Positions 27,607-35,447 of a stretch of 37,141 nucleotides of DNA are shown piece after piece (within the stretch, counting starts at the first letter, position 1; each line of letters opens with the position of its first letter). This stretch comes from Acidimicrobiia bacterium (GTDB lineage Bacteria; Actinomycetota; Acidimicrobiia; IMCC26256; PALSA-555): contig JBBECS010000011.1 in NCBI GenBank assembly GCA_040881685.1, forward strand, positions 1-37,141, given 5' to 3'. Both the position numbers and the translations under genes were made by a program. The notes beneath the pieces are model-generated. The model did no database searches and was not told the DNA's origin. It was given only the letters and a program-made list of their open reading frames with translations.

Positions 27607-28449
27607 TCAGCCGGTGAGCTTGGGTGTCGCCAGAACCGGGATGGCAGGCGCGCCACCCGTCCCCGTGCCACCAGTCCCCGTGCCGCCGGTGGGCGTGCCG
27701 CCGGTGGGGGTGCCTGTCGGCGTTCCACCGGTGACGTCGGTATCGGTGACGATGTTGGTGATCGTGGTCGTACAGCTCACCCTGCCGCCGCCACCGTCCG
27801 CGGAATCCTCATTGCACTGATTCACCGTTACGGGCAGGCTCGAGCTCGACGTGCCCGAGGCCGAACAATGTGAGAACTCGGGAGCGAAAGTCACGAGACC
27901 GCCACCATTGCCCGTGCGATTGTTGCATTGGAAGATCGTGGCACCTCCCGCGTTCGAGACCGGGCTGCAGGTGTGTGGCGCAGTGCCGAGACCGTCGGGC
28001 TGATTGTTGTTGCACTGGTTGACGGTCGCCGTTGTCGCGGCTTGTGCCCCGCTCACGGCGATGTTGTTGATGATGTTGACGTGACACCGCAGGGTCCCGC
28101 CGCCGCCACGTGCGGAGGTGTTGCACTGGTTCACCGAGGTCACGATGTCCGTCGAGGTCAAGACGGTCGTAGCGCCGAGGTGATTGGTGGTCGTGATGAC
28201 CGAGCCGGTTGTGCTCGGGCTGTCGGTCAGCGTGTTGATGACCGCGACGTCACAGTCCACGGTCAGACCAGGCGTGTTGTAGACGTTGTTGCACTGGTTC
28301 ACCGAGATCGGCGCGGCCGAAGCCGGCTTCGTGGTGGACTCGAGCGCTACCGCGCTGAACCCGACGGCAAGCAGAATCGAGGCGAACAGGCTCGTCAGGA
28401 GTCGGACGCGCTTGGGCCCGCGACGAGGTTCATTGATGGGACCGTTCAT
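27607..28449 (-). CDS. secreted protein with five QCN cysteine repeats
   Basis: A 280-residue exported protein of unknown family. A basic N-terminus and hydrophobic segment (about 17-36) ending ASAA near 46 form a signal peptide. Five repeats begin (V)NQCN or FQCN, with Cys pairs at 53/66, 109/122, 146/161, 175/195 and 212/226. The even number and oxidising location suggest disulfides. A low-complexity Thr-Gly-Pro stretch (about 240-266) then leads to the C-terminal end ATPKLTG. The ATG at 28449 with GAAGGAG is a good start. No enzyme motif is seen; a surface or matrix structural role is possible. The end resembles that of the toroid protein at 30142. Confidence 0.7.
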   Translation of the reverse strand: MNGPINEPRRGPKRVRLLTSLFASILLAVGFSAVALESTTKPASAAPISVNQCNNVYNTPGLTVDCDVAVINTLTDSPSTTGSVITTTNHLGATTVLTSTDIVTSVNQCNTSARGGGGTLRCHVNIINNIAVSGAQAATTATVNQCNNNQPDGLGTAPHTCSPVSNAGGATIFQCNNRTGNGGGLVTFAPEFSHCSASGTSSSSLPVTVNQCNEDSADGGGGRVSCTTTITNIVTDTDVTGGTPTGTPTGGTPTGGTGTGGTGTGGAPAIPVLATPKLTG

Positions 28450-28609
28450 GATCAACACTCCTTCTCGCTGGGAGCGTTGAGGGCAGGGTCTAGGTCCCCG
28501 AGACGTCACCGGGTCGGTGACATGGCCGCATCGATGGAACTCACGTCCCATCAAGTTGAGCGCTCTATCCCAGGGTTATCGGCCGGCACGTCACGAGACT
28601 TGAGCCGGC

Positions 28610-29365: not shown

Positions 29366-30145
29366 TCAGACCAGCCGGCGGTGGCGTCGGAACCAGAGGC
29401 CGGCACCACCGAGCGCGACGACCAGGCCGCCGGCGACGATGACGCCAACAGGGGAGTTGCCGTCGTCACCGGCTTGGATGTTGGGGCGACCCCCGCGCTT
29501 GGGCCCGCTCGTTTGCTCGCTCGATGCGCCGTTGTTGTTGGGCGAACGTGTCGACGTGGTGGTGACCTCTGTGCCGGCGGGCGCGGGCGTGCCGTCGGGG
29601 CTCGTCTCCGTGGTCGCGCCTACGCCCGAGAAGCCGGACGGGTTCGACGGTGACGTCGGCGCGGGCGGGGGTGACGCGCACCCGGCCGTGTCACAGAACG
29701 AGTGGTACGGCGGTGGCTGTCCGGTCCCGTAGGCCCAACCCTCCACCGAGCCGTTGCTCACCGGACTGCTGCCCGCGGCGGAGCCGGCGTACTGCCAGCT
29801 GCTCGATCCCGGCGGCGACTTCCAGTACGACCAGTACTTGCCTGTCGTCTCACCGAGACACTCGCCAGGAACCGCGGGGTTCCCGACGCCGTTGATCTTG
29901 CACACCGCGGTGCCCTGCCCCGAGTACCCGATCGTCTCGACGCTCGCGACCATCTGGAGCGCCTGGAGCCCGTTGATCGTGCCGCTGAACGAGATCGTGC
30001 GAGGGCTGTCGTTGCCGATCACGATCACGGCACGACTCGACGCGGCGTGCGCGACCGGTGCTGGTGCGATTGCGGTCGCGCTGGTGAAGATCGCCAGCGC
30101 CACCGCTGTCGCCGCGACGGCGCGCCGAAGCACGCGACTCCTCAT
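29366..30145 (-). CDS. membrane-anchored DUF4430 (transcobalamin beta-domain-like) protein
   Basis: A 259-residue exported protein. The signal peptide covers about 1-35. Residues ~40-135 have the DUF4430/transcobalamin C-terminal domain pattern: GLQALQMVASVE, then TTGKYWSYWKSPPGSSSWQY and VSNGSVEGWAYGTG. A Pro/Ser/Thr-rich linker follows, then one C-terminal membrane helix (about 232-252) and the basic tail RRHRRLV. The N-terminal part is therefore outside the cell and tethered to the membrane. Its ATG overlaps the stop of the toroid protein gene (ATGA). Together they correspond to the beta and alpha domains of animal transcobalamin/intrinsic factor, which clamp cobalamin. The cobalamin riboswitch ahead of the operon supports corrinoid binding. 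Confidence 0.8.
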   Translation of the reverse strand: MRSRVLRRAVAATAVALAIFTSATAIAPAPVAHAASSRAVIVIGNDSPRTISFSGTINGLQALQMVASVETIGYSGQGTAVCKINGVGNPAVPGECLGETTGKYWSYWKSPPGSSSWQYAGSAAGSSPVSNGSVEGWAYGTGQPPPYHSFCDTAGCASPPPAPTSPSNPSGFSGVGATTETSPDGTPAPAGTEVTTTSTRSPNNNGASSEQTSGPKRGGRPNIQAGDDGNSPVGVIVAGGLVVALGGAGLWFRRHRRLV

Positions 30146-31692
30146 CCGGTCAACCTCGGATCCGCGATGACTGCGGTCGGGACCCCAGGCGCGGCGGCCG
30201 GACTGACGACCGCCGGTCCGCTGGGGTCGAGGATGACACCGTTCGTGGTGTCGTCATCATCCCCGGGACCGTGGTCGGTCAGGGTCAGCGTGATGACGTT
30301 CCCGGCGAAGGCCGCGTGGTCGGTGAAGTCCTGCCACGCGCCGTCATGGAGCTTGAAGTAGCGGGTCAGCGCGGGTCCGCCGTGGAGCGTGAGCTCCACC
30401 TGCACGGTGCCACCGGGCGTCACGCCGAGGACGAGGAAGGTCACGAGCCCGCGCGGGAACGTGGCGCCGGTCGGGGGAGCCGGAGAGCCGGGCGCAGCGC
30501 TCGCGGTGACGCTGCCGAGGCTGCCACCGGACGGCACTTCCAGCGTCAGGTAGCCACCGCTCGCGCCAGGCAGCGAGGCGACATTCGCCTGCTCGGCATC
30601 GGGGATGCCATCGTCGTTGCCGTCGCCGCCGTTCGGCGCGCCCCACTCGACCGCATCAGTCACGCCGTCAGCGTCGGTGCACGTGAGTGGCGACACCGAC
30701 GTCGCGCGCGGGACCTCGACGCGCACGAGTCCCTGGATTGCCTGCGAGGTCGCGAACGTGTTGATGCCGAAGCCGTCGTTCGGGCTCGCGATGCGCCCGT
30801 CGGGCTGCTGCTGCGCGGCGAGGAAGGCATCACCGGCCGGGAGGAACGTCAGCCGCCCCGCAACGCCGAGCGCGAGCAAAGCGAGCGCGGTCGAGTTCGG
30901 ATCGTCGGTGCCGAACGACTGCCACGCGCCCGTGCCCTGCTGGGCGGATTCGAGATAGTCGAGACCCAGCTCGACGTTGGCATCCGACGTGGTGCTGTCG
31001 TCGTCTTCGAGCAGGGTGAGGATGGCCGTGGCGGTCGTGTCGATGTCACCACCGGTGCCGGTGGCATCGCCGTCGAAGGACCACGATCCGTCCGACTTCT
31101 GTGACGCGTCGATCTGCGTGATCGTCGCGTCGGGAACGTCGCTGGCGCCCGCGGTCAGCGCATAGGCGCGGCCCGCCGTCAGGATCGAGTTGAAGGCGAA
31201 CAGCGAGAAGCCGAACCGCCCGTCGACCCCGGGCGCTCCGAGCACGGTCACGAGGTTCGTGGTTCCGCCGTCGCATTTGGGATCGAAGGACGTGGCGTCG
31301 ATCCCGAGTGGGTTCGTCACCTGCACGATGACCTTTGCCGCCTGGCCTTTGGTGATCGGGGTGTCGGCGAGGTCATCGAACGCCTCGAGTGGGCTGTTGT
31401 CCGAGCCGCCGAAGCGGGTGGCCGCGACCTCCGCCATCGCGGCGTCGGCGTCCCACGAGCCCCCCGGCTGTGCGGCCGACGCGATGGCGAACGTCGCGTC
31501 GGATGTCTCGAAGCCGGGGAAGTTCGCGACTTCGAAGCCCCCATCGGCTTCTTGTTGCGTCCGCAGCCAGGCGAGCGCCTGGTTGACGGTTGCTGACGCG
31601 CCGAGGGTTGGTGTGCCGATGAGCAATGCGAATGTTGCGAAAAGTGAAGCAAGCGCGACGAACGACACCGCGCGACGCGAGATGCCAGCCAT
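30142..31692 (-). CDS. secreted alpha/alpha-toroid (transcobalamin-like) protein with choice-of-anchor U domain
   Basis: A 516-residue exported protein. A signal peptide of ~30 residues is followed by prenyltransferase/squalene-oxidase-like repeats: QALAWLRTQQEADGGFEV, TITQIDASQKSDGSWSFDG, LDYLESAQQGTGAWQSFG, FLAAQQQPDGRI. An Asp-rich calcium-type segment (DGNDDGIPDAEQAN) comes next. The C-terminal domain (YFKLHDGAWQDFTDHA to NVITLTLTDHGPGDDD and NGVILDPSGP) looks like choice-of-anchor U. It ends IADPRLTG without a membrane helix. The ATG at 31692 follows GGAGGAAGG; longer reading through the riboswitch is rejected. First gene of the riboswitch operon; probably the corrinoid-capturing alpha domain. 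Confidence 0.8.
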   Translation of the reverse strand: MAGISRRAVSFVALASLFATFALLIGTPTLGASATVNQALAWLRTQQEADGGFEVANFPGFETSDATFAIASAAQPGGSWDADAAMAEVAATRFGGSDNSPLEAFDDLADTPITKGQAAKVIVQVTNPLGIDATSFDPKCDGGTTNLVTVLGAPGVDGRFGFSLFAFNSILTAGRAYALTAGASDVPDATITQIDASQKSDGSWSFDGDATGTGGDIDTTATAILTLLEDDDSTTSDANVELGLDYLESAQQGTGAWQSFGTDDPNSTALALLALGVAGRLTFLPAGDAFLAAQQQPDGRIASPNDGFGINTFATSQAIQGLVRVEVPRATSVSPLTCTDADGVTDAVEWGAPNGGDGNDDGIPDAEQANVASLPGASGGYLTLEVPSGGSLGSVTASAAPGSPAPPTGATFPRGLVTFLVLGVTPGGTVQVELTLHGGPALTRYFKLHDGAWQDFTDHAAFAGNVITLTLTDHGPGDDDDTTNGVILDPSGPAVVSPAAAPGVPTAVIADPRLTG

Positions 31693-31777
31693 GACCTTCC
31701 TCCGCCAGCCCCTGGTCCACGAGGGCCGTATCGCGACCACCCCGAAGGGCGGCGTCCCCATTGGGAGCGCCGGTGGC

Positions 31778-31897
31778 CCGGCGGACGGCGGCGGGTAGCC
31801 TGGCTTGCGGAGTGCGAACGCCGGTTGTCCGGCGGCCGCAGCGCCGCTCACAGTTGCGGGTCAGCGTCGGTCTCGCACCGACTTCCCCCGTCCCCGG
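31778..31897 (-). ncRNA. cobalamin riboswitch
   Basis: Read on the minus strand, P1 arms CCGGGGACGG (31897-31888) and CCGTCCGCCGG (31788-31778) pair with one bulge. Between them are the conserved core GGGAAGTCGGTGCGAGACC, then GCTGACCCGCAACTGTGA, and the 3' element GCAAGCCAGGCTACCCGCC, matching the cobalamin riboswitch (RF00174) landmarks GGTG, CCCGCaACTGT and AAGCCAGG-AGACC-TGCC. About 85 nt lie between the aptamer and the ATG of the toroid protein, including pairing segments near its GGAGG that could block translation. It should switch off the toroid-DUF4430 operon when cobalamin is plentiful. The peripheral P7-P10 part looks short. Confidence 0.9.
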
Positions 31898-31948
31898 CGT
31901 GCCGGGAACCACACGCAGCATCCGGGCTGCGCGTGACCGCTGTCAGAG

Positions 31949-33091
31949 ATGACCGTACCCACGATGCCCGAGCCGTCGCAAACGTCTGCGCACACGGAAC
32001 GTCCGTGGCACGCGGTCACGTGGTTGTGCTGGGCACTGGCTGGCACGACCGCGATCCAGCTCGCAGACAATCCGCTCTACGTGCTGGTCGTGATCGGCGT
32101 GGCGTGGGTCGTGGTGTCCGCCCACGGGCGCGAAGGCCCGTTCGCTCGGGCGTTCCCCTGGCTGGTGGGGTTGGCGGCCGCCTTTGGCGTGCTTCGGGTC
32201 GTCCTGACCGCGGCCACGACCCACGGTGGCTCGGACGTGCTGTTCACGACGCCTTCGTTCACGCTTCCTGAAGTCCTCGGTGGCTTCACGGTCGGCGGAA
32301 CGGTCGAGACCCCCGTGGTCGTCCATGCCGCCGCCGAGGGCCTGGTGATCGTGGGCATCGTTGCCGTCTTCGCCGCGTTCAACGCCGTCGTCTCGCACTA
32401 CGAGCTCGTGCAGACCGCGCCGCGGGCATTCCACGAGCTGGGGCTCGTCGTCGTTGTGGCACTCGCGTTCGTCCCATCGATCATCACCGCCGCGCACGAT
32501 GTCGGTGAGGCGGATCGAGCTCGAACCGGGGGGCGCGTCGTGCGTCGGGGACGGCTCCTCCGGCGACTCGTGCCCGTGTTGGAGAGTGGGCTGGAACGGG
32601 CGATCACGCTCTCGGAATCGCTCGACTCGCGCGGTTTCGCCCACCGGGGGCCGTCGGCTCGCGAGCGCGGTGCCGGCTGGTTCGGCGCGCTGGCGCTGCT
32701 CTCGCTCGGCGCAGGGTTCGTCGCGCTGATCGCCCGCGAAGGGACCATCGCGCTCCTCCTCGCGATCGCTGGCGCGGTGGGTGTCGGCGTTGCGGTCCTG
32801 CTCGTGTCGGGCTCGTCCGAACGAGTTCGCTACCGCCGCCGTCGGATCGCCACCGCTGATTGGGTCTGCATCGCGGTCGTGATCGCGGCGCCGGTCCTGC
32901 TCGGCGTCGTGAGCCTGGTTGGTGACAGCACCCTGCTGTGGCCGACCGATCCATTGGGCTGGCCGACGTTGCACGTGCTCCCGGTGCTGGCATTGCTGGC
33001 GCTCGTGGTGCCGTGCATGCGAGCGCCGTCGACCAGCAGCGTGGTCGCGGCGCCACGGGTGACGGCGCGCGCTGCCGCGGAGGCCGCATGA
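31949..33091 (+). CDS. ECF transporter T component (EcfT/CbiQ family)
   Basis: A 380-residue membrane protein with hydrophobic segments at both ends and a central cytoplasmic coupling region. ADRARTGGRVVRRGRLLRRLVPVLESGLERAITLSESLDSRGF carries the EcfT helices and the (A/S)RG-type motif that docks on the ATPases. It is longer than typical EcfT (~260) because of extra hydrophobic segments at the C-terminus. It is the first gene of the rightward ECF operon, divergent from the riboswitch operon. The ATG at 31949 lacks a clear ribosome-binding site; the ATG at 31967 is an alternative. Its stop overlaps the ATPase start (ATGA). Confidence 0.88.
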   Translation: MTVPTMPEPSQTSAHTERPWHAVTWLCWALAGTTAIQLADNPLYVLVVIGVAWVVVSAHGREGPFARAFPWLVGLAAAFGVLRVVLTAATTHGGSDVLFTTPSFTLPEVLGGFTVGGTVETPVVVHAAAEGLVIVGIVAVFAAFNAVVSHYELVQTAPRAFHELGLVVVVALAFVPSIITAAHDVGEADRARTGGRVVRRGRLLRRLVPVLESGLERAITLSESLDSRGFAHRGPSARERGAGWFGALALLSLGAGFVALIAREGTIALLLAIAGAVGVGVAVLLVSGSSERVRYRRRRIATADWVCIAVVIAAPVLLGVVSLVGDSTLLWPTDPLGWPTLHVLPVLALLALVVPCMRAPSTSSVVAAPRVTARAAAEAA

Positions 33092-34653
33092 GCGCGATCG
33101 CCTATAGCGCGGTTTCGTTCGCATACCCGGACAGCGACCTCGCGCTCCAGGACGTGACCCTCGAAGTCGCGCCGGGAGAGATCCTGCTCGTGGTGGGCAG
33201 CTCGGGCTCCGGGAAGAGCACCTTGTTGCGGTGCGCGAATGGTCTCGTGCCTCACTCGTCCGGCGGTCGATTCTCGGGTGACGTCATCGCATTCGGTCGC
33301 AGCACCCGATCGCATCACCCGCGGGAGCTGGCCGACGTCGTTGGCTTCGTCGGTCAAGATCCAGAGGCTCAGTTCGTCGTCGACCAGGTCGAGCACGACA
33401 TCGCGTTCGTGCTCGAGAACCTGGGTGTGCCCGAATCCGCGATGCGCCGACGCGTGGAAGAGACGCTCGACGCACTCGGCATCGCGCACCTGCGGGACCG
33501 GTCGCCGTCGACGCTGTCGGGCGGGGAGCGCCAACGCGCGGCGATCGCCGGTGCCCTTGCCGCAGCGCCGAGTGCCCTCGTGCTCGACGAGCCGACCTCA
33601 CAGCTCGATCCGCAGGGCGCCGACGACGTCCTTGCCGCGGTGTCGCGGCTCAACGCTGATCTCGGCACGACGGTCGTGTTCGCCGAGCACAGACTTGAAC
33701 GCGCAGCACCGCTCGCCGATCGCGCGGTGATCGTCGATGGTGGGCACGCCGCACCGCCGGCCCCAACCCGCTCGGTCCTGGCTGGCTATGAGGGCGCCCC
33801 GAGTGTCACCCGCCTCGGGCGGCTGGTCGGATGGGATCCGCTGCCACTCACCGTCCGCGAGGCCCGGGCGGCCGCGGCCGCGCACCCATTGCTCGGAACG
33901 GCCGGGCCCGAACCAGCTGCCAGCGCGCGCGGAGATGTGCTGGTTCGCGCGAACGGTTTGAGCGTGAGCCTCGGCAGCACCCAGGCGTTGCGCGACGCGT
34001 CGCTCGATGTGTGCGAGGGGGAGGTCATCGCGCTCCTCGGGCGCAACGGCGCGGGCAAGACCACGTTGCTGCGTGCGCTCGCACGCTTGGTGAAAGCGGA
34101 CCGGGGCAGCGTGGAAGGTTCGGCCACGGTCGGGTACGTGCCGCAGGACCCGGGGAGCATGCTCTTCGCTCCTACGGTGCGCCGCGAGGTGACCGAGACG
34201 CTGCGTCTCCTCGGCCAGCGCGACGACGGCGCCGTGGACGCCTGGCTCGATCGACTTGGCATCGGTCATCTGGCGGAGCACCACCCGCGCTCGCTCGCGG
34301 GAGGAGAACGTCAGCGGATCGCGATTGCTGCCGTCGCGGTGGGGGGCGCGAGCGTGTTGCTGCTCGACGAGCCCACTCGGGGCATGGACGCGGCGTCGCG
34401 CAGTGCGCTCGAGCACGCGGTGAAGGAGCACGCCGAAAAGGGTGGCGCCGTCATCCTCGCGACGCACGACATCGAGCTCGCCGCCCTGTGCGCGACGCGC
34501 GCCATTGTCCTCGGCGATGGTGAGGTGATCGCCGAAGGACCGGCGCGAGCCGTGCTCGCCGGCTCGCTGTACGCGCCGCAAGTGCTGCGGGTCCTGCCGC
34601 CGTTCCTGACCGTGGCCGACGTTGCGGCCGCGCTGGCACGGGAGTCCTCGTGA
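33088..34653 (+). CDS. fused double ATPase of ECF transporter (EcfA-EcfA')
   Basis: A 521-residue protein with two complete ABC domains. Half 1 has Walker A GSSGSGKST, LSGGERQRAAIAGAL and Walker B ALVLDEPTSQLD. Half 2, from ~290, has GRNGAGKTT, LAGGERQRIAIAAV and LLLDEPTRGMD. In most ECF systems EcfA and EcfA' are separate; here one chain supplies both. GQDPEAQFV in half 1 is the typical EcfA Q-loop. It is between EcfT (4 bp overlap) and the S-like component (4 bp overlap), so stoichiometric expression is expected. It powers import by the T/S membrane proteins. Confidence 0.93.
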   Translation: MSAIAYSAVSFAYPDSDLALQDVTLEVAPGEILLVVGSSGSGKSTLLRCANGLVPHSSGGRFSGDVIAFGRSTRSHHPRELADVVGFVGQDPEAQFVVDQVEHDIAFVLENLGVPESAMRRRVEETLDALGIAHLRDRSPSTLSGGERQRAAIAGALAAAPSALVLDEPTSQLDPQGADDVLAAVSRLNADLGTTVVFAEHRLERAAPLADRAVIVDGGHAAPPAPTRSVLAGYEGAPSVTRLGRLVGWDPLPLTVREARAAAAAHPLLGTAGPEPAASARGDVLVRANGLSVSLGSTQALRDASLDVCEGEVIALLGRNGAGKTTLLRALARLVKADRGSVEGSATVGYVPQDPGSMLFAPTVRREVTETLRLLGQRDDGAVDAWLDRLGIGHLAEHHPRSLAGGERQRIAIAAVAVGGASVLLLDEPTRGMDAASRSALEHAVKEHAEKGGAVILATHDIELAALCATRAIVLGDGEVIAEGPARAVLAGSLYAPQVLRVLPPFLTVADVAAALARESS

Positions 34654-35447
34654 ACACCACGTCGCAGCGCGTGCCGACCGCGATGGTCTACGTGCTCATG
34701 GTCGTCGTGGGCGTCGCGGCATTCCTATATCCGTTCTGGTTCCCGTCCAACGCATTCCCCGGCAGCGCACACGCCGGCGACGCGCCGCTCTGGGCCGCGG
34801 CGATCGGGGCCCTCGTCGTGGGGGCCGTCTCGCTCGAAGTGCGACGCGGGACCATGAACGGCGCGGTCGTGGCTGTGCTCGGCGTGCTCGGCGCGAGCGC
34901 CGCGCTGCTGCGCCTCATTGACCTGCCTGGCAACAACGCGGGCATTTTCTTCCTCGTCATCCTCGGCGGCGTCGCCTTCGGTCCTCGGTTCGGTGTGCTC
35001 CTCGGCATCACCGCGATGGCGACGTCGGCCGTCATCACCGGCGGCATCGGACCGTGGCTGCCGTTCCAGATGCTCGCCCTTTCGTGGATGGGTGGGACCG
35101 CCGGGCTCCTCGGTCGGTGGTCTGCTCGCCTCCCGGCGCGAGTCGAGGTCCTCGTGGTCGCCGGCTTCGGGTGGTGCTGGGGCTTCGCGTACGGCGCGGT
35201 GATGAACCTTTGGTCGTGGCCGTTCCTCCAGGGCGACGGCGACACGCTGTGGCGCCCCGGCCTCGGCGTGGGGCGGACCGCCGAGCACTATTGGGCGTAC
35301 TACGTCGCCACGTCGTTCGGATGGGACGCCGCGGGCGCGCTGTGCAACGCCATCCTCCTGCTCGTCACCGGTTCCGCGCTCCTGCGCACACTCAGGCGCT
35401 TCGCGCACCGACTCGAGCCAGTCGTCGAGCTCGTGCCCACGACCTGA
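34650..35447 (+). CDS. ECF transporter S-component-like membrane protein
   Basis: A 265-residue polytopic protein with about six to seven hydrophobic helices: VYVLMVVVGVAAFLYPFWF, LGGVAFGPRFGVLLGITAMATSAVITGGIGPWLPFQMLALSWMGGTAGLLG, and a last helix near 235-250. The GPxFG...G.GPWLPFQM part resembles ECF S components and related vitamin-uptake proteins. It starts at a GTG within the ATPase stop (GTGA), completing a T-A/A'-S operon. Because a cobalamin riboswitch operon is divergent next to it, cobalamin or a corrinoid precursor is the probable substrate; this is inferred from context, not from S-component motifs. Confidence 0.82.
   Translation: MNTTSQRVPTAMVYVLMVVVGVAAFLYPFWFPSNAFPGSAHAGDAPLWAAAIGALVVGAVSLEVRRGTMNGAVVAVLGVLGASAALLRLIDLPGNNAGIFFLVILGGVAFGPRFGVLLGITAMATSAVITGGIGPWLPFQMLALSWMGGTAGLLGRWSARLPARVEVLVVAGFGWCWGFAYGAVMNLWSWPFLQGDGDTLWRPGLGVGRTAEHYWAYYVATSFGWDAAGALCNAILLLVTGSALLRTLRRFAHRLEPVVELVPTT

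Follow-up and report, generated by a model that had tools for sequence, protein, structure and literature searches.

How bacteria that lack a BtuB-type receptor in an outer membrane capture scarce vitamin B12 ahead of CbrT-type transport is a largely open question, and it is addressed by a locus of an Acidimicrobiia bacterium (GenBank assembly GCA_040881685.1, contig JBBECS010000011.1, positions 1 to 37,141; this whole stretch of 37,141 nucleotides is hereafter called the window). A cobalamin riboswitch leads there into genes for a secreted alpha/alpha-toroid protein and a membrane-anchored protein with a transcobalamin-type beta domain, and an energy-coupling factor (ECF) importer is encoded divergently. 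The locus is probably a cobalamin-repressed corrinoid importer, most likely for intact cobamides or B12, equipped with a two-chain capture device at the cell surface. Import of a corrinoid by it is very likely; that the corrinoid is clamped between the two chains is what we infer by analogy with the animal B12 carriers. The features of the locus are the following.

31789..31911, minus strand: RF00174 aptamer of a cobalamin riboswitch, heading the operon of the toroid and beta-domain genes; covariance model, 50.8 bits
30142..31692, minus strand: secreted alpha/alpha-toroid protein, 516 amino acids; signal peptide, predicted toroid at residues ~31-330, choice-of-anchor U domain at 407-495
29366..30145, minus strand: surface protein with predicted transcobalamin-type beta domain (SCO2322-related), 259 amino acids; weak NF040672 match, AlphaFold2, VIA-align
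31949..33091, plus strand: EcfT-type membrane subunit (CbrV-like), 380 amino acids; homology to annotated EcfT, conserved in relatives
33088..34653, plus strand: fused EcfA-EcfA' ATPase (CbrU-like), 521 amino acids; TIGR04520, ATPase motifs
34650..35447, plus strand: ECF S component (CbrT-like), 265 amino acids; PF12822, hhalign to CbrT of Lactobacillus plantarum pMF1298-5

The original prediction, made on reading the sequence alone, had placed a cobalamin riboswitch core at 31778-31897 on the minus strand. An Infernal search (cmscan) returned a significant RF00174 match overlapping that interval, at 31911-31789(-), whose 50.8 bits exceed the gathering score of 31.5 (E-value 5.8e-10). This was the single RF00174 match across the whole source genome, which comprises 3.1 Mb in 54 contigs. 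The aptamer lies about 97 nucleotides from the toroid start codon, an ATG at 31692 with GGAGG upstream; folding of the leader in search of an expression platform gave no significant structure, and no strong terminator was seen. This distance and the lack of a strong terminator in the sequence indicate that the riboswitch probably acts on translation of the surface genes. The toroid gene and the gene of the anchored protein share 4 nucleotides in a stop-start overlap. The plus-strand trio, which had been described as divergent and overlapped throughout in the same manner, was confirmed to share 4 nucleotides at each junction, EcfT starting 37 nucleotides past the riboswitch.

The divergent operon had been taken for an ECF module serving the vitamin. 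EcfT had no match in Pfam or NCBIfam and was identified by homology to the EcfT annotated in Streptomyces sp. SAT1 (E 2e-30 at 31% identity), by position and by its transmembrane segments. The fused ATPase matched TIGR04520 with 302 bits over two stretches and carries two sets of Walker A, signature and Walker B motifs. With the S component in the same operon, the window thus encodes a dedicated ECF module. The S component itself matched PF12822 (42.9 bits) and is strongly conserved among relatives. Its profile aligned with CbrT of L. plantarum pMF1298-5 (hhalign probability 99.0%, E 5.6e-18), and this protein in turn matched the solved CbrT of L. delbrueckii, 6FNP (E 1.8e-9), so that homology to CbrT was established via one intermediate, in agreement with the assignment to the vitamin. 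Binding and import of cobalamin and cobinamide have been demonstrated for ECF-CbrT (PMC5997447), and CbrTUV (CbrUVT) was described as a type of B12 transporter by Rodionov et al. 2009, as cited in the same paper. The window operon shares with CbrTUV (Santos et al. 2018) its T, A-A' and S parts and its B12 context; whereas ECF-CbrT of L. delbrueckii uses a shared module, the window has a dedicated operon with a fused A-A'. On these sequence comparisons, the ECF part is a predicted CbrUVT B12 transporter.

The anchored protein consists of a signal peptide, a core at residues 32-168, a linker, and a C-terminal transmembrane segment at 233-251 followed by RRHRR. It had been called membrane-anchored and DUF4430-like. 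The anchor was found, and the second term proved right for the fold and wrong for Pfam, in which DUF4430 (PF14478) left the window protein unmatched and recovered one of 67 relatives at E 0.017. NCBIfam NF040672, the SCO2322 family, gave 21.6 bits (E 2.2e-4), under its cut-off of 85 bits, as for a distant relative, and a search of PDB sequences with the beta-domain profile gave nothing up to E 10. An AlphaFold2 model of the core, built with the 67 relatives in the alignment, reached a mean predicted local distance difference test score (pLDDT) of 93.4. Foldseek with this model placed 3u7z first, followed by transcobalamin, haptocorrin and intrinsic factor (E-values from 1.2e-3). In VIA-align, Z was 12.4 for haptocorrin (1.7 Å over 94 residues), 12.1 for transcobalamin and 11.9 for intrinsic factor, within a range of 11.1-12.4 for carrier beta domains, the nearest unrelated row standing at 6.9. 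Judged from the model, the core has the C-terminal beta-domain fold of transcobalamin, intrinsic factor and haptocorrin, and it is because of these structural matches that DUF4430-like is correct in fold.

For the partner, the predicted secreted alpha/alpha toroid was borne out by sequence profiles, structure and a signal peptide. It has no membrane anchor of its own; the choice-of-anchor U domain (82.3 bits) had been overlooked, and toroid relatives elsewhere bear LPXTG-like tails, transmembrane tails or SLH domains. Pfam gave weak SQHop/TED matches. PF01122, the transcobalamin alpha domain, left the window toroid unmatched and recovered one of 47 relatives at E 7e-4; profile comparisons also connected the family, more weakly than with the cyclases considered below, with complement/alpha-2-macroglobulin toroids. 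Profiles and models together assign the window protein to the general alpha/alpha toroid fold. The very last residues of toroids in this family are PRLTG, PRFTG or RGLTG (window 30142-30160; L013-L019). A role of PRLTG/PRFTG in sorting was entertained and then dropped, since the same codons supply the Shine-Dalgarno sequence and the ATGA overlap for the gene that follows. Nearby, an exported protein rich in Cys and Asn and unrelated to the toroids (27607-28554; tail 27607-27625, minus strand) ends in PKLTG with no obvious overlapping gene, a case that the explanation by coupling leaves uncovered.

In three relatives (L083, L087 and L105) toroid and beta domain are joined in a single chain, the tails after the beta domain looking like cell-wall-binding repeats; in the window the two domains are encoded by two genes. 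The AlphaFold2 model of the L087 fusion (pLDDT 90.8, predicted template modelling score 0.78) retrieved transcobalamins, intrinsic factor and haptocorrin as its top fourteen Foldseek matches (E 2.7e-10 to 6.6e-8), with single-toroid proteins behind them. Operons with more than one beta domain (two or three) were observed at L102 (4034-4207), L083, L087, L105 and L094; they have either a Pfam DUF4430 gene beside one of the SCO2322 type, or two beta domains fused to a toroid. At L034:7529-10195, a toroid with an LPRTG-like tail and a beta-domain protein run together in a single open frame, inside which a second signal-like stretch occurs; this could be a fusion or reflect a missing stop.

Conservation of the gene set was surveyed at several depths. 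Among the closest 61 genomes, 30 encode the anchored protein. RF00174 was present in 23 of the 30 loci fetched from the order, 22 of them above the gathering score and one with E 1.1e-11, and at the seven loci without a match the contig ends next to the gene. Over the phylum, an SCO2322-type protein was found in 44 of 296 genomes, and in 37 of these 44 a same-strand cobalamin riboswitch lies 0.2-3.2 kb upstream, counting matches up to E 0.001 and up to a distance of 4.5 kb, some of which are under the Rfam gathering score. For genomes of 2-10 Mb with one to nine riboswitches, such a pairing by chance is estimated at well below 1% per genome. Most of the phylum shows a co-directional order, riboswitch followed by toroid-beta-EcfT-EcfAA'-S, and the riboswitch therefore heads the importer itself there. 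When the S component was used as query, 48 suitable loci (ECF operon present and enough upstream DNA) were obtained from the best 80 of 589 S relatives from named genomes; the beta-domain gene was present in 47, the toroid in 44 and both in 43. Since the S family had first been defined from loci already holding a beta-domain gene, and the best 80 of 589 were taken, these counts are a consistency test and not an unbiased census. Together with the riboswitch counts they nonetheless show toroid, beta domain, ECF genes and B12 riboswitch occurring together very widely, in favour of the original prediction. The loci include Streptomyces, Kribbella, Janibacter, Knoellia, Nocardioides, Acidimicrobiia and Chloroflexota such as Chloroploca, whose riboswitch scored 49.1 bits. 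The gene set is thus kept across Actinomycetota and Chloroflexota, with the surface pair usually overlapping or adjacent. Elsewhere in the phylum, cobalamin riboswitches also precede true Pfam DUF4430 genes, which are often accompanied by ECF genes and a terminal toroid.

Several further arrangements were seen in these surveys. At L126-L143, from other Actinomycetota, Pfam DUF4430 genes with strong cobalamin riboswitches are accompanied by EcfT-EcfAA'-S and have the toroid last, and G086, G111 and G199 contain open frames of 1500-1890 amino acids with several DUF4430 domains. Two more ABC ATPase genes converge just past the S gene in Acidimicrobiia loci L017, L018, L019, L025, L028, L032, L145 and L146. 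On a Streptomyces plasmid, metE, encoding the B12-independent methionine synthase, directly adjoins the operon (L226:6723-9035), a position that would fit B12-dependent switching. Close S relatives were found in Herpetosiphon and Chloroflexus (L161, L164, L171) with no toroid, beta-domain or ECF genes detected in the fetched neighbourhood.

A counterpart occurs on a lactobacillus plasmid. In L. plantarum pMF1298-5 the gene order is EcfT, EcfAA', CbrT, an exported protein of 350 amino acids annotated as 'fucose-binding lectin II', and a DUF4430 protein (59.5 bits in Pfam). The 'lectin' (L225:8485-9537) aligned with the toroid profile (hhalign 96.4%, E 1.3e-9), and by this sequence relationship its label is probably a misannotation. 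Between the beta-domain profile and the single lactobacillus DUF4430 protein, hhalign gave no significant match, and homology of these two therefore rests on fold and gene context. The plasmid was reported to carry nrdJ, cobA, cobS, cobC, cblTS and CbrVUT (PMC6722938). Given this and the gene order, a set of toroid, beta-type protein and CbrTUV recurs in lactobacilli with an independent B12 context. Recurrence across Actinobacteria, Chloroflexi and some lactobacilli suggests that many bacteria catch B12 with a transcobalamin-like clamp.

In the mechanism that we propose, scarcity of cobalamin would permit, through the riboswitch and its presumed repression by cobalamin, synthesis of the surface proteins. 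Beta domain and toroid would then clamp a corrinoid between them, in the manner of the two transcobalamin domains, keep it at the cell surface by way of the beta-domain protein's anchor and hand it to the CbrT-like S component, and the EcfT/EcfA-A' motor would drive it through the membrane. The interpretation given originally was of this kind, and it was supported wherever a test could be made (riboswitch, beta fold, toroid, fusions, conservation and kinship to CbrT).

Several observations weigh against this interpretation. In the window the riboswitch heads the surface genes directly and the divergent ECF operon has no riboswitch of its own, so that the latter would be regulated in some other way or be constitutive. 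Compared directly with 6FNP, the S profile gave no match up to E 10. In the L087 fusion model the toroid scored higher with squalene cyclases (Z 24.6) than with transcobalamin (20.8), for which reason the toroid alone is no proof of B12 binding. Superposition of that model on holo-transcobalamin left a whole-chain root-mean-square deviation of ~19 Å, each domain fitting and their arrangement differing. Finally, four loci (L181, L190, L216 and L222) have a beta-domain gene and no detectable toroid.

The last two points, namely a fusion model outside the clamp arrangement and a toroid missing from view where the beta-domain gene is retained in 47 of 48 loci, also speak for corrinoid import without a two-chain clamp, in which the beta domain or the toroid would bind alone and its partner would anchor, dock to S or shield the ligand. 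The window toroid, with a choice-of-anchor U domain and no membrane anchor, would suit such a division of labor, and 5np4 is a solved isolated human beta domain with cyanocobalamin. Conservation of the usually overlapping or adjacent pair, its fusion in three relatives and the presence of counterparts of both halves of the animal carriers argue for joint action, however, and we consider this alternative doubtful.

Cobalamin riboswitches also control transporters of precursors and of cobalt, and the ligand might accordingly be cobinamide or another precursor, dimethylbenzimidazole or cobalt instead of complete cobamides. CbrT takes up cobinamide as well (PMC5997447), and one review lists cbrUVT for uptake of cobyrinate diamide (PMC8123684). 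Against this stand the beta-domain fold, which indicates corrinoids and not cobalt or a small base, and the equipment of the host. Its genome contains ten B12-binding domain matches, and profile searches found in it neither CbiC nor CobS, no PduO-type adenosyltransferase (the BtuR type was not searched for), and one weak FecCD match with no clear BtuC. From this gene content the host looks like a cobamide user that needs import of complete cobamides and has no clear BtuCD. With CbiC and CobS missing, cobalt and incomplete corrinoids are not obviously usable, and their import is therefore unlikely; taken as a whole, this alternative appears improbable.

A role of the toroid as an exported enzyme acting on terpenoids or polysaccharides, with a place in the operon unrelated to ligand capture, is very improbable, and a terpene cyclase was rejected. 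Its best matches in sequence and Z are indeed squalene-hopene and drimenyl cyclases, but the protein is exported, none of 47 toroids keeps the DxDD acid of class II terpene cyclases (DxDT stands in its place, and DxDTTA, NSTA and ATxQA are conserved instead), and the gene is nearly always beside a B12 riboswitch and ECF genes and, in some relatives, joined to that of the beta domain.

The preferred account, a two-chain corrinoid capture device loading a CbrT-type importer, invites comparison with known systems. With animal transcobalamin, intrinsic factor and haptocorrin (2BB5, 2PMV, 4KKI) the window pair has in common the toroid and beta domain, export and the link to corrinoids. It differs in being bacterial and encoded by two genes, in the membrane anchor of the beta half, in a sequence identity of only ~7-15%, and in its partner, an ECF importer instead of an endocytosis receptor; the toroid, moreover, is not specifically nearer to transcobalamin than to other toroids. 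Because the toroid has no PF01122 match and the domains are not in a single chain, the pair was not classed as a member of the transcobalamin family. Whether the bacterial pair of Actinomycetota, Chloroflexota and some lactobacilli, usually two chains, cell-anchored, corrinoid-clamping and ECF-loading, is a true homologue of the animal B12 carriers we regard as evenly balanced. If it is, the animal carriers would be its fused descendants or cousins; their pre-vertebrate origin is obscure, and the bacterial sequences offer material for tracing the pair of transcobalamin folds.

BtuG and BtuH of Bacteroides likewise capture B12 at the surface ahead of a transporter, their partner being the outer-membrane BtuB; BtuG is a beta propeller and is not known to be related in fold to the window proteins. 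Stripping of B12 from intrinsic factor by BtuG is mentioned in PMC12713380. The nearest named families are NCBIfam SCO2321 (NF053823) and SCO2322 (NF040672), Streptomyces relatives of the toroid and the beta protein, respectively, from the same operon type; they are named without an assigned function, and the window proteins score under their cut-offs. A specific, testable function is hereby proposed for SCO2321, SCO2322 and genes labelled 'squalene oxidase repeat' or 'fucose-binding lectin II'. No mention of accompanying transcobalamin-like surface proteins was found in the CbrT literature, and a literature search disclosed no transcobalamin-like bacterial module tied to ECF transporters, most subscription literature lying outside the search, so that an earlier mention is possible. 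Riboswitch and CbrTUV transporter are both of known kinds; the transcobalamin-like surface module joined to them is, as far as that search goes, undescribed. At the far end of the window, positions 1-42 hold the 3' half of a tRNA, at the contig start.

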